From contig CAMNJW010000006.1 of assembly GCA_946541845.1 (NCBI GenBank), forward strand, positions 1 through 48,249: DNA of 48,249 nucleotides. Direction: 5' to 3'. Positions 22,754 through 27,219 of the stretch are shown here, piece after piece; the stretch's first letter is position 1, and the number at the start of each line of letters is the position of its first letter. Origin of the DNA: an uncultured Methanobrevibacter sp. GTDB lineage: Archaea; Methanobacteriota; Methanobacteria; Methanobacteriales; Methanobacteriaceae. The notes under the pieces are model-generated. The model was not told where the DNA came from. It worked only from the letters and a program-made list of their open reading frames with translations, and did not search any database. The position numbers were made by a program, and so were the translations under genes.

Positions 22754-25345
22754 TCACCCATTTTCTATTTTCTTAATTAAATAGTTAGTCTTTTTAACTA
22801 TATTATTTTTATTAAATGATTTTGAAATTCTCTTAATCGCATCCAGGTTCTTGACAAAATTATCCAGCCATGAAAAAATATCTCCAGGATAGACCTGAAT
22901 CTGATATTTTCTGAACAGTTTGTTTGATATGTCCTGAGGGTCTTTGCCCTTAAGCCTTTCATTAATAATTACTTCAGAAATTCCTCTTTGCATACAACTG
23001 CAGAATGGCCTGTCCTGACAATTGCATTGCATAAAATCAGTTTGAAGTGCAATCAGTGCATCCTGGAATTTCTTGTCCACTTTCTCAATGGCTTCACCGG
23101 ATGAAATTATATCCAATGTGGATTCCGCAAAGAGCCTTGTTGAAAACTTGATTTTCAATGCGTTTGAAATCTGATTGTGAATCACACTTGACAGATATGC
23201 ATTTTCAAACATTTCCAAATCCAGTGCCATAGCTAAAATCAGCACTTTCAGTTTATCATACTTGTCCTTTTTCTTATACATCGGAGAGTGTCCAACATAT
23301 CTTTTCAGATACTCCCTATCGTTTAAAGTATTCTTAATGAATTCAGCTTCATCAATAGATAAAAATGACACAGATGTCGCCCTACCATACTTTGTAACAT
23401 CCAGCTTATTATTCGGAGTTATGTTGATTAATCCCAAATCCTCCATTTCATCACTGGCAATCTTAAGAGAAATCGGAACATCAATATCCTTATAAAACTT
23501 ATTCAGCTCTTCAATTGACTTGATTGATGTGGATGAGATATCTGCCAAAATCTGTTCATATGCTGATTCCTCATCATATTCTATGAATACATCCTCACTA
23601 TTGCTTTCAAGCAAATCAAGTGCTTTGGATTCTTCACTTTCTCCCATAAAGTCATTTCCAACTTCCGGAATCAAGTATACGACACCCCGATCATGGTATG
23701 ACGGCCTTCCTGCACGACCCAACATCTGAGAAAATTCGTTTGGATTGATCCACTTGTTTCCCATAACAAGAGAATCAAATATTACCTGTGAAGCCGGAAA
23801 GTCCACACCTGCCGCAAGAGCTGCTGTTGTCACTACACATGAAATCTTGCCCTTGTCAAAGTCCTTTTCAATCTTTTCCTTCTTATAATAGGACAATCCG
23901 GCATGGTATGCCTGAGCATTCACCCTTTTATTGTTTAAATAATTGGCAATCTGGTGGGTCTTACGCCTTGAATTGGTAAATATAATTGTTTGACCTCTAA
24001 ATCCTTTTTTGGATTTTGTGTTATATTCCTTTTGAACAAGCTTTCTCATGAGATGACGCTTTTGGGATTCATTTCTGATATAAACAAGATGCCTTTCTAA
24101 AGGAACAGGCCTTTGGGAGTATTGAACCAGCTTCATGTTGAACTCTGAAGCTAGAAATTCAGGGTTTTTGACTGTAGCGGAAAGTCCAATAATCTGTGTT
24201 TGAGGATATAGGTTCTTTATCCTTTTAATAAGGCCATTGAGCCTTGTACCTCTGTCCTCATCATCAATCATATGAATCTCGTCAATCAATACCACGCCTA
24301 AACCTGACAATGATTTGGAGTTACCGTTTCTTAAAAGGTAATCGATTCCCTCATATGTTGCAACAACAATATCTGCATTTGAAACATCGGAATCAGGCAA
24401 TTTAAGCTCCCCTTTTGCCTTTACCCTATTTCTTCCAACCTTAATTGCAACATTTAATCCTAATTTTGAGTATTTCTTTTTAAAATCCCTATATTTCTGG
24501 TTAGCCAATGCAACCAAAGGAGTCAGAAAAATAAACTTTTTGCCTTTAAGTGCCTTGGTAATTCCTGCAAGCTCCCCAACCAGTGTCTTACCTGAACCTG
24601 TTGCACTTACAACAAGCAAATCCTCACCCTTTAAGAGTCCTTCCTTAATGGCCAGATACTGAACCGGCAACAATTTAGTATTGCCTGAGTCCAATAACAC
24701 CTGTTTGAATTTCTTAGGTATCTTTAACCGTTTCATGTCAACAGGAGGTATGATATGCTTGGATTTTTTGGTCTTATCAAATAATGTCAGTTTGGTGTTT
24801 TTCAAGGGGTCAAAGTGAGGATCAAGGACAGACAATGTCTTTTCCAAACTTCCTGTTTTTTCCAATGTCTTTTTAAGATTTCTAAAAATCTTTTTATCAA
24901 ATCCCTGAAGCTTGATTTCCTCTTTTATTGTATCATGAGCACAATCCTTACAAATCAATTGATTGTTGTACTTATAGGAAAATTCGGAGTTTACAATAGT
25001 GATGTTTCCCTCATATGCACAGAAGTCACAAACCTGGGTTTTCCTGACCTTGATGTTTAATGACTTGAGAAATCTTTCCACCTTTTCATCAGGAGTTGCA
25101 AGGAAAACAGCCTGACTTCGCAAAAGCTTGATGACCTCACCCGGAGGCATTAGCTTCTCATTTAAAGTTGAATTGTCATTGAAGTTATAATCTGCAACGA
25201 AACGTGAAATGGACAATGAGTCGCCGTCATGGCTGAACTTGATATTTCCAACGAATTCCGGTTCCCTCTTATGATTTAGTGCACCTTTTGGAGAACCAAT
25301 CGGAAATAACCTCCACTGTTTTTTAATCTTTTTTAAAACTAGCAT
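22754..25345 (-). CDS. archaeal superfamily II helicase (COG1202-type, DUF5814)
   Basis: An 863-residue DEAD/DEAH helicase. An N-terminal region carries a four-Cys zinc site (CDFCAYEG about residues 102-109 with CKDC about 132-135). Motif I is SATGSGKT (about residue 250), motif II DEIH, motif III GLSATVKN, and motif VI QMLGRAGRPSYHDRG. A Cys-rich segment (CNCQDRPFCSCMQRG, about residues 770-785) and a winged-helix-like C-terminus follow. This matches the archaea-specific Ski2/Hel308-like group catalogued as COG1202. Likely DNA or RNA unwinding in repair or RNA metabolism. First gene of a minus-strand operon with a HerA-like ATPase and a putative winged-helix protein. No Shine-Dalgarno site precedes the ATG, so a leaderless or weakly led mRNA is possible. 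Confidence 0.85.
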   Translation of the reverse strand: MLVLKKIKKQWRLFPIGSPKGALNHKREPEFVGNIKFSHDGDSLSISRFVADYNFNDNSTLNEKLMPPGEVIKLLRSQAVFLATPDEKVERFLKSLNIKVRKTQVCDFCAYEGNITIVNSEFSYKYNNQLICKDCAHDTIKEEIKLQGFDKKIFRNLKKTLEKTGSLEKTLSVLDPHFDPLKNTKLTLFDKTKKSKHIIPPVDMKRLKIPKKFKQVLLDSGNTKLLPVQYLAIKEGLLKGEDLLVVSATGSGKTLVGELAGITKALKGKKFIFLTPLVALANQKYRDFKKKYSKLGLNVAIKVGRNRVKAKGELKLPDSDVSNADIVVATYEGIDYLLRNGNSKSLSGLGVVLIDEIHMIDDEDRGTRLNGLIKRIKNLYPQTQIIGLSATVKNPEFLASEFNMKLVQYSQRPVPLERHLVYIRNESQKRHLMRKLVQKEYNTKSKKGFRGQTIIFTNSRRKTHQIANYLNNKRVNAQAYHAGLSYYKKEKIEKDFDKGKISCVVTTAALAAGVDFPASQVIFDSLVMGNKWINPNEFSQMLGRAGRPSYHDRGVVYLIPEVGNDFMGESEESKALDLLESNSEDVFIEYDEESAYEQILADISSTSIKSIEELNKFYKDIDVPISLKIASDEMEDLGLINITPNNKLDVTKYGRATSVSFLSIDEAEFIKNTLNDREYLKRYVGHSPMYKKKDKYDKLKVLILAMALDLEMFENAYLSSVIHNQISNALKIKFSTRLFAESTLDIISSGEAIEKVDKKFQDALIALQTDFMQCNCQDRPFCSCMQRGISEVIINERLKGKDPQDISNKLFRKYQIQVYPGDIFSWLDNFVKNLDAIKRISKSFNKNNIVKKTNYLIKKIENG

Positions 25346-25428
25346 TATGTTTATTTATATTATTAATCGTTAATAAATTTTAAATTAAATCAACGTGACT
25401 CAATTAGTTAATGAAAACATTTAAGTAT

Positions 25429-25443
25429 AATATGGCCCATATT
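25429..25443. promoter_or_regulatory. 15-bp perfect palindrome over a TATA-like region
   Basis: AATATGG-C-CCATATT is a perfect inverted repeat. It overlaps a TATA-like stretch (TTTAAGTATAATAT, starting near 25420) that could drive the structured element downstream, and lies 84 bases upstream of the divergent helicase start. GCCCATAT recurs at 25483. Possible operator; regulator unknown. Confidence 0.3.
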
Positions 25444-25481
25444 TTAATTAAGATTTAGAAGGTAAAAACTTATTAAAGTTT

Positions 25482-25532
25482 AGCCCATATATCCTTGTCT
25501 CGACGAGGGGCGAATTAGGTGGTACATGGGTT
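25482..25532 (+). ncRNA. candidate structured RNA beside a DUF3800 gene
   Basis: A compact, GC-richer island in AT-rich intergenic DNA. On the plus strand AGCCCAT (25482-25488) pairs with ATGGGTT (25526-25532), and CCTTGT (25493-25498) pairs with the stretch at 25503-25508 to form an inner hairpin. Each stem contains one G-U pair that would become an A-C mismatch on the minus strand, which favours plus-strand transcription. A TATA-like box about 60 bases upstream is suitably oriented. The neighbouring gene encodes a DUF3800 protein, and several candidate structured RNA motifs named for DUF3800 genes have been reported in comparative screens; whether this is one of them I cannot test. It might also be part of a mobile-element end. 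Confidence 0.45.
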
Positions 25533-25549
25533 CTTCATATCTTATTAAT

Positions 25550-26148
25550 CTAATTTTTATATAATTCTTTAATTGTTTTATTTTTTATTAATCTTGAAAA
25601 TTCATTATTGTCATGCTCAAAACTTTGAAAAATTGACCATGAAATTAAATCAGCAATTTGCAACCCCTTGAAATGCATAGAATTCACATGCTCAATAGTA
25701 ATTGGTTGATTTTTATAATTGATTAAATTTTCTAGAAATTTCTGATTGAATTTGAGTATTTCATAATTTTTGTTTTTTGACTTGTCAATGAAGATAAAAG
25801 TAGGATTAGTTATAGTTATTAATTTAGCTAATTCAGAAGCCAATATATCATATAATTCCTTATTATCATATCCATATCCAATTTTATATCTGTTAATTTT
25901 TTCAAAAACAAGGATAAATGTTTCATAATTCACATTTTTTAACTTTTTAACTTTAACTCATAAGGCAAATTACTTCCTTTAATCTCATTAGAGGTTAAAA
26001 GTTTCTTTTTCACTGAACGTCTAGTTTTATTTATTACCCTATCTAAAGTTATTGGGTTTTCAACCTTAACTCCAACTATAACAAAATATTTTGAACTAAA
26101 CTTTTTAGTTCCCAAATCTCCACTTTCATCAATGTAAATATATGACAT
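25550..26148 (-). pseudogene. DUF3800 family protein, split by a one-base frameshift
   Basis: Two adjoining reading frames together make one DUF3800 protein of about 199 residues. The first (26148-25939) has the family start YIYIDESGDLG; the second (25933-25550) has FIDKSKN and the C-terminal LQIADLISW motif. The first frame ends in TAA just after a run of five A (25944-25948 on the minus strand). One extra A, or one slip back by one base there, joins the frames as YELKLKKLKNVNYE. The acidic motifs recall RNase H-like nucleases, an inference only. Candidates: inactivating deletion, phase variation at the A run, programmed frameshifting, or sequencing error. DUF3800 genes are usually accessory and mobile; here the gene lies between an 18-bp palindrome upstream and a candidate RNA downstream. 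Confidence 0.75.
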
Positions 26149-26246
26149 TATTCAACCGTTACATACTTTATAATCAAATATTATTCTAAAAATAATATAT
26201 ATTTTACTATAAAGCCCAAATAATCTATTAATACTAAAATAAATCA

Positions 26247-26273
26247 ATTTTACACGTGTAAAATAATTTTACA
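26247..26273. promoter_or_regulatory. 18-bp perfect palindrome plus a third half-site
   Basis: ATTTTACACGTGTAAAAT (26247-26264) is a perfect palindrome. The half-site ATTTTACA is repeated at 26266-26273. It lies about 100 bases upstream of the DUF3800 start and beyond the 3' end of the DUF368 gene, so it more likely belongs to the DUF3800 unit. Dimeric repressor operator is the simplest reading. Confidence 0.45.
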
Positions 26274-26311
26274 AAAATAAATCAATATAATACATTAAAA
26301 AAAAAATAATT

Positions 26312-26340
26312 AATTTTGATTATTCGATATAATCAAAATT
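26312..26340 (-). terminator. 12-bp hairpin containing the DUF368 stop codon
   Basis: AATTTTGATTAT pairs perfectly with ATAATCAAAATT around the loop TCGAT. The TAA stop (26320-26322) lies in the stem, and a T-rich tract follows on the minus strand. Confidence 0.65.
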
Positions 26341-27219
26341 GGTTTCCATTATTATAATAATCGCAAATCCTATAATTGCAATAATTAAACAAGGAAACAG
26401 ACCTGCAAAGTTCATACCAACTGAATTTGCGATTTCAACACCAGGTACTTTTAATGATCCAAGCATTACACCAATAAGAAATGCCATGGTCACTTCTTCA
26501 TGATTTTTGAGCAAATAATTCAATATTTTTGAAAAACCCAGTATTCCTATTACCGCACCGACAACAAATACAATTATTTCAGATAAATGCAATTGGTGAA
26601 GGGCATTTAACATGTATTTATATTGCCCTAAAAGCAACAGTAAAAATGATCCTGAAATACCTGGCAAAATCATTGCACAAATGGCTATCATACCTGAAAA
26701 GAATATTATCAGCAGGGAATGATTTGCCGCAATCGGATTCAAACTTACAAATATGTATGTTAAAACACATCCAATTATTGCAAATAATATATTTTTTAGG
26801 TTAATTTTATTGAGTTTTTTAAACAATATTACTGCAGAAGCTATAATTAGCCCTAAGAAGAATGAATATGTAAATGCAGTATAGTTATCCATACAAAAAG
26901 TTACAACTTTAGCAAGTGTTAAGAATGCTACACCTATACCCAATATCAATGGAATAAAAAACTTAAAATCTATTTCATCTAGCAATTGGGTCCAAAATCC
27001 ATGCAAATCTCCTTTAAACAGTGGTTTTACAAATCCAAACTTAATGTTACTAATTGCTTCTACCAAATGAGAATAAATTCCAGTAATTAAAGCAATTGTT
27101 CCTCCAGACACTCCCGGAACAATATCCGCAGATCCCATAAGTATTCCTCTAACGAATATCAAAATTGCTTCCTTAAGATTTATATTCAAATTATCACCAA
27201 TACTACTTTTATAGTTCAT
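26320..27219 (-). CDS. DUF368 membrane protein, putative polyprenyl-phosphate transporter
   Basis: A 299-residue integral membrane protein of family DUF368 (COG2035). The diagnostic glycine-rich repeat occurs twice: GSADIVPGVSGGTIAL near residue 30 and ICAMILPGISGSFLLLLLG near residue 181. About eight hydrophobic helices are visible. Bacterial DUF368 proteins (PopT) flip the polyprenyl-phosphate carrier back across the membrane; in an archaeon with pseudomurein the analogous job would be recycling the lipid carrier for wall or glycan synthesis, which is inference. No good Shine-Dalgarno site precedes the ATG. It ends in a strong hairpin that holds the stop codon and stands 65 bases downstream of the aquaporin gene. 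Confidence 0.85.
   Translation of the reverse strand: MNYKSSIGDNLNINLKEAILIFVRGILMGSADIVPGVSGGTIALITGIYSHLVEAISNIKFGFVKPLFKGDLHGFWTQLLDEIDFKFFIPLILGIGVAFLTLAKVVTFCMDNYTAFTYSFFLGLIIASAVILFKKLNKINLKNILFAIIGCVLTYIFVSLNPIAANHSLLIIFFSGMIAICAMILPGISGSFLLLLLGQYKYMLNALHQLHLSEIIVFVVGAVIGILGFSKILNYLLKNHEEVTMAFLIGVMLGSLKVPGVEIANSVGMNFAGLFPCLIIAIIGFAIIIIMETNFDYIE

Follow-up and report, generated by a model that had tools for sequence, protein, structure and literature searches.

The stretch of DNA considered here (48,249 nucleotides of contig CAMNJW010000006.1 from an uncultured Methanobrevibacter sp., assembly GCA_946541845.1; hereafter the window) contains two nested stems at 25482-25532, which an earlier note, made from the letters alone, had proposed to be a structured RNA next to a DUF3800 gene. 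The locus raises the questions of whether these stems belong to a genuine RNA, on which strand and at what length it is made, and whether it has a working relationship with the DUF3800 protein. RNAs associated with DUF3800 genes have been catalogued in Rfam, from motifs for which Weinberg et al. in 2017 are reportedly the source, yet they are unexplained as far as Rfam and the literature we examined show.

Structure and Strand of the RNA

Taken as a single sequence, the hairpin is only modestly unusual. When 25482-25532 was folded alone the z-score was -1.7 and 12 of 200 shuffles folded equally well, and single-sequence z-scores on the plus strand ran from -1.7 to -1.8. As this is weak evidence alone, it is the comparison with homologues that decides. 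A 121-nt query gave same-genus matches down to E = 2e-32, with 79-91% identity across most of the element, and a covariance model built from 18 sequences (R2, the E-values of which are rough) located 72 copies of the RNA in 50 of the 151 genomes of the order, distributed over six genera of one family. In the full alignment 86.1% of cells are paired, and both partners have changed in 26 of the 33 pairs. The cells changed on both sides, a count that takes in related, non-independent sequences, number 263 versus 98 ± 11 in shuffles, and the signal is lost when the partner strand is slid by one to three columns. The full alignment was fitted to R2; a MAFFT alignment that predates the model (A4), for which a P2-side insertion was removed by hand from four rows prior to alignment, gives the same covariation result. 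A first covariance model (R1) was discarded, RNAalifold having given no pair and insert-bearing sequences having been misaligned.

The covariation, the absence of which would by the earlier note's own account have spoken against a structured RNA, is therefore present, and the two nested stems are borne out by the fold, the homologues and the covariation together. That the stems arose by chance in AT-rich intergenic sequence, a reading with which the modest z-scores would agree, is refuted by the covariation and further contradicted by the conserved placement of the element in dozens of genomes, and we give it practically no credence.

The coordinates of the proposed hairpin are exactly those of one arm (P1/P2, 25482-25532, plus strand) of a larger RNA, but the RNA itself is ~95 nt and not 51. 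It spans 25450-25544 (+) and comprises a closing helix (P0), a hairpin (P3) and the P1/P2 arm, arranged about a three-way junction. The match of the covariance model covers 25450-25543 with a score of 94.8 bits, which is to be read with the window RNA itself being among the 18 sequences used to build R2. The 5' strand of P0 lies at 25450-25461, its outer part (25450-25454) pairing with 25539-25543 and its inner part (25458-25461) with 25533-25536, for a 3' side of 25533-25543, and P3 occupies 25466-25481 (25466-25471 paired with 25476-25481). Folding of 25450-25544 without constraints gave a minimum-energy structure that is exactly the consensus three-way junction. P3 is confined to the Methanobrevibacter group and absent from some copies, and an extra hairpin beside P2 is found in other copies. 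A tRNA search returned none.

The G-U pairs on which the earlier note had based its choice of the plus strand are a thin signal in the window alone (2 G-U cells versus 1 A-C cell), but the argument proves right among the homologues. In an alignment of 73 RNAs (67 distinct rows) the core helices have 180 G-U cells on the plus strand versus 30 for which the minus strand would give G-U. In the alignments of homologues made before this one, standard pairs rise from 79.7% to 86.7% when the reading is turned from minus to plus. Since the A-C cells of the minus strand become G-U on the plus strand, we place the RNA on the plus strand, antisense to DUF3800, and for the same reason a minus-strand RNA (on the DUF3800-sense strand; alignments A2 and A3) was dropped.

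Sequences on either side of the RNA are consistent with its having a transcription unit of its own. A TATA-like promoter element (TTTAAGTATA, 25420-25429, +) is conserved in the aligned homologous upstream sequences, and 58 of the 72 loci have such an element beginning 28-42 nt ahead of the RNA, most commonly at -33 or -32, versus 10 in control windows. Past the 3' end of the RNA is a U-tract (25554-25558, +), a likely archaeal terminator, and 67 of the 72 loci have a T-tract no more than 22 nt beyond where the RNA ends. From these two signals we predict that the RNA is transcribed independently, from its own promoter to the terminator-like U-tract, as a species of ~95-110 nt.

The DUF3800 Gene and Its Insertion Site

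The gene beside the RNA lies on the minus strand, tail-to-tail with it, and its reading frame is broken by a frameshift between a 5' part (25939-26148, 69 aa, containing the catalytic YIDESG motif; Pfam PF12686, 7.7e-8) and a 3' part (25550-25933, 127 aa from a GTG; Pfam PF12686, 6.3e-8) that stops 6 nt short of where the RNA ends. The RNA is intact, and no second DUF3800 copy was found in the source bin (84.7% complete). Judged by its sequence, the nuclease of the window appears to be dead while the RNA survives. The DUF3800 neighbor that the earlier note had recognized is a recurrent, convergent partner (see below), although the gene in the window is broken. A perfect 16-bp palindrome (TTTTACACGTGTAAAA, 26248-26263), possibly an operator, precedes the DUF3800 start by ~100 nt.

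Flanking this pair, and outside the module, are genes for a DEAD-box helicase with DUF5814 (22754-25345, -; from the gene list and a domain search) and an undecaprenyl-phosphate translocase-like protein (DUF368/VCA0040; 26320-27219, -). The gap between the two is 49-74 nt in 16 relatives and 978 nt in the window, from which we infer that the RNA and DUF3800 gene constitute an insert of ~914 bp (approximately 25384-26297) between the DUF368-type and helicase genes. The same gap (25345-26320 in the window) holds unrelated inserts in several relatives (L161, L169, and L188), as though insertions were tolerated there.

An insert between genes that are adjacent in relatives could mean that the RNA is the structural end or the cargo of a transposon-like element and has no physiological role of its own, and the occurrence of the module at varied sites, in tandem copies, on plasmids and in prophage-like loci is in keeping with this. 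The earlier note had likewise allowed that the sequence might be a piece of an insertion-element end. However, comparison with the empty sites of relatives revealed no recognizable transposon in the ~914-bp insert, nor were terminal repeats, a target-site duplication or a transposase of the module recognized, in an inspection short of a systematic search; the contexts of the module are varied, and a conserved promoter, a U-tract and covariation are signs of a transcribed RNA. We consider a mere transposon part to be very improbable.

Association of the RNA with DUF3800 across Genomes

The DUF3800 gene is intact at 27 of the 72 RNA loci, a remnant at 28 and missing at 16, with a contig end at the remaining one. 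Every paired gene or remnant is convergent with the RNA, and its stop codon overlaps the RNA end, most often by 4 nt, or else lies within ~25 nt. Viewed from the protein, the RNA lies beside 35 of the 43 genus matches to a DUF3800 profile, with a 36th having its RNA cut by the contig start; of the seven matches without RNA three are of a longer kind (287-550 aa) and the rest are stop-containing pieces. The regions beside DUF3800 genes elsewhere, to which the earlier note had pointed, thus hold the same type of RNA, and on these sequences the RNA appears to go one-to-one with compact DUF3800 genes, even where three such genes stand in tandem, each with its own convergent RNA (L268, 2069-4623). 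We are accordingly highly confident that the RNA is real, is on the plus strand and has DUF3800 as its partner, the partner relation being well supported.

Neighbors of the module are varied, with no constant third gene and with prophage-like loci and plasmids among the contexts, and no recurrent defense or toxin partner was found among the flanking genes. Viral contigs gave a single distant DUF3800 only. Phage records gave no match to a Methanobrevibacter protein as query and, with another query, one distant match in a Streptococcus satellite phage, at which there was no DUF3800 RNA match. At one further locus (L140, 2501-2622 and the downstream ORF) the C-terminal remnant of a DUF3800 gene follows an adhesin-like repeat ORF as an in-frame fusion.

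The two members of the pair do not seem to be lost evenly. The pairing of RNAs beside remnants (0.867) is close to that of RNAs beside intact genes (0.878), and at two loci compared with an intact relative (L136 and L137 versus L144) the RNAs are 97.6% identical and the gene remnants 77-79%. In 26 of the 50 RNA-bearing genomes there is no intact DUF3800 beside any RNA. These comparisons suggest that the RNA commonly outlives the protein gene, although its retention may be overstated, as many of the genomes are draft metagenome bins in which remnants may be recent and frameshifts may in part be assembly errors. The RNAs without any DUF3800 have a pairing of 0.826, and a TATA element by a stricter pattern in 4 of 16.

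Related RNAs in Other Archaea and in Bacteria

Compact DUF3800 genes also occur in Methanosarcinaceae, Methanoperedens, Thermoplasmata, Archaeoglobi, and several DPANN lineages. At 47 of 53 such loci the core motif GGUAA-CC is found antisense, just beyond the DUF3800 stop, versus an expectation of 0.014 per locus derived from the remainder of those loci. When 36 of these distant RNAs were aligned 93.7% of cells were paired, with 132 double changes versus 42 ± 6. Searching these loci with R2 identified ten RNAs, all of them correctly placed (seven in archaea outside Methanobrevibacter and one, L225, on a contig labeled Bacteroidota); an eleventh match (E = 4) was elsewhere and is noise. A covariance model built from the 36 distant RNAs (R3) recognizes intermediates such as L157 and L225 and misses the window RNA, for which reason its kinship with the distant group is argued from R2, the shared core, the placement and the intermediates, three of which (L157, L225, and L245) bridge the two models.

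The L225 contig carries an archaeal-type DUF3800, 51% identical to a Methanobacterium congolense plasmid protein, together with the RNA, and may be a misbinned archaeal contig. Two other contigs with a DUF3800 module have further RNA features: in Methanolobus psychrotolerans (L239, 3591-4800) the module is followed closely downstream by a CRISPR array (Rfam CRISPR-DR7), and an archaeal RNase P RNA, slightly under the Rfam gathering score, is present on an Aenigmarchaeota contig (L232, 806-1015).

The Rfam covariance search that the earlier note had put forward came back empty, as the window RNA was matched by no DUF3800 family, at either the gathering or a relaxed threshold, and by no other family. 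Resemblances to the catalogued DUF3800 RNAs are nevertheless evident in layout and core. DUF3800-X (RF02984, ~73 nt) is likewise convergent and abuts the DUF3800 stop at five archaeal loci (L240, L261, L271, L273, and L274), and has a P0-GUAAG-P1 core in common with the window RNA, which differs from it in having the extra P3 hairpin, a different P2 arm and no match to its model. The archaeal member that the earlier note expected to be notable is indeed archaeal, but has a precedent in these DUF3800-X loci. DUF3800-V (RF02964), on a Gammaproteobacteria plasmid (L289), is also convergent at the DUF3800 stop and has the core GGGUAAGUCC, but is longer (96 nt) and bacterial, has a different arm and does not match the window. 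DUF3800-I (RF02969), known here from a sub-threshold match at one locus in Paraburkholderia (L291), is similarly an sRNA adjoining a DUF3800 gene, whereas it lies upstream of that gene in the same orientation and ends in an intrinsic terminator immediately ahead of it.

The window RNA thus has no match among the curated models of the group (Rfam DUF3800-I to -XI), and shares with it a conserved structured RNA consistently beside DUF3800, a P0-GGUAA-P1 core and the convergent placement at the stop codon seen in DUF3800-X and -V. As none of the models matches, we file it by its core, placement and partner, and on these features of sequence it joins the DUF3800 RNA group as a new and divergent member.

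The abutment of RNA and stop codon, usually an overlap of 4 nt or a distance within ~25 nt, could alternatively be that of a cis element or antisense RNA which acts on the DUF3800 mRNA by controlling its 3' end, its stability or its termination. This is improbable given that the selected structure is on the strand antisense to DUF3800 and has its own promoter, that RNAs remain where the gene has gone, and that the DUF3800-I-like RNA is upstream instead. The occurrence of the RNA gene on either side of the protein gene makes action in trans likelier than an effect on the mRNA in cis.

The DUF3800 Protein and Its Possible Relationship with the RNA

To characterize the protein we used an intact homologue of the broken gene in the window (L196), the AlphaFold2 model of which has a pLDDT of 93.8. 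The best matches of this model in the PDB by Foldseek are archaeal RNase HII (E ~1e-6, TM ~0.6), and D7, E8, E55, D124, and D169 are invariant in 55 homologues; a sequence search of solved structures gave no true relative. By its modeled structure and invariant aspartates and glutamates the protein would have an RNase H fold with a carboxylate active site, and we predict it to be a nuclease of RNase HII fold. DUF3800 has been described as adopting an RNase H fold whose active site is rearranged, as being associated with ncRNAs, and as an accessory nuclease in Cas12a2-type loci (PMC10910872) as well as in some type V-A2 and VI-F CRISPR loci (PMC12669027).

We propose that the window contains a two-part module of an independently transcribed, plus-strand RNA of ~95 nt and a compact, tail-to-tail DUF3800 gene, here broken, which in its behavior resembles a mobile unit of RNA and nuclease more closely than it does a simple gene switch. 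The RNA would act in trans as a structural partner of the DUF3800 protein, the GGUAA bulge that is conserved between P0 and P1 being a likely site of protein contact. We think a trans-acting RNA-protein pair of this kind probable, and a ribonucleoprotein pair is the best-supported reading of the data.

Less certainly, the RNA may restrain the nuclease in the manner of an RNA antitoxin. Inhibition of the nuclease is suggested by the asymmetric loss, in which the RNA is kept and the DUF3800 gene has decayed: if the RNA restrains the nuclease, loss of the protein first would be harmless and a lone RNA could be kept. Against this, the poorer pairing of RNAs without DUF3800, and their usual want of a TATA element, suggests slow decay rather than long-term use. 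We therefore hold an antitoxin-like action, drawn from these sequence comparisons, only tentatively.

A different role for the RNA would be as the obligatory cofactor or guide, and not an inhibitor, of a DUF3800 effector complex engaged in defense or RNA-directed cleavage. Many RNA-dependent nucleases have an RNase H fold, DUF3800 accessory genes occur in CRISPR loci (PMC12669027, PMC10910872), one archaeal module adjoins a CRISPR array (L239), and DUF3800 has a weak match to the PADLOC defense candidate PDC-M04A (3.9e-8). On the other hand, no hypervariable, guide-like stretch is apparent among the aligned RNAs, and the keeping of an RNA beside a broken protein is unexplained unless another copy acts in trans, while in 26 of 50 genomes there is no intact DUF3800 beside any RNA. 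We judge a cofactor or guide to be less likely than inhibition, though deserving of serious consideration alongside the inhibitory ribonucleoprotein pair.

At its broadest, the pair could represent an archaea-wide mobile RNA-nuclease system, either a new type of RNA antitoxin or a defense ribonucleoprotein, in which the Rfam motifs and the window RNA form one superfamily and lone RNAs are antidotes to the nuclease, a synthesis that we offer as speculative. The locus contributes a divergent archaeal RNA family in which covariation is clear and which its common core and constant convergent arrangement tie to DUF3800-X and -V; to this are added an RNase HII fold modeled for the protein and numerous natural loci at which the RNA seems to have outlived it. 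Across archaea, and into bacteria as well, the same pairing of RNA and protein recurs, and an unexplained association becomes a testable RNA-nuclease pair, in animal-gut methanogens and across archaea.

Comparison with Known RNA-Nuclease Systems

In TnpB systems the omega RNA overlaps the 3' end of its gene. The DUF3800 module is like TnpB and IscB with their omega RNAs in consisting of a gene for an RNase H-fold nuclease, as predicted here, and an adjacent structured RNA. It is unlike them in that the RNA runs antisense to its gene from a promoter of its own, whereas an omega RNA shares the strand of the nuclease gene and extends past its scaffold into a guide; neither a guide region nor transposon ends were recognized in the DUF3800 module, and no variable stretch was seen in the RNA alignment. 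In type III toxin-antitoxin systems the RNA antitoxin gene is upstream in the operon of the toxin, has a terminator between the two and is composed of tandem repeats (PMC5086642), whereas the DUF3800 RNA is downstream and convergent, a single structured RNA per gene, with a partner of predicted RNase HII fold. We do not claim membership of type III for the DUF3800 module; its likeness to ToxIN, TenpIN, and CptIN may instead be one of working, in that an endoribonuclease and a structured small RNA would be carried together on mobile elements.
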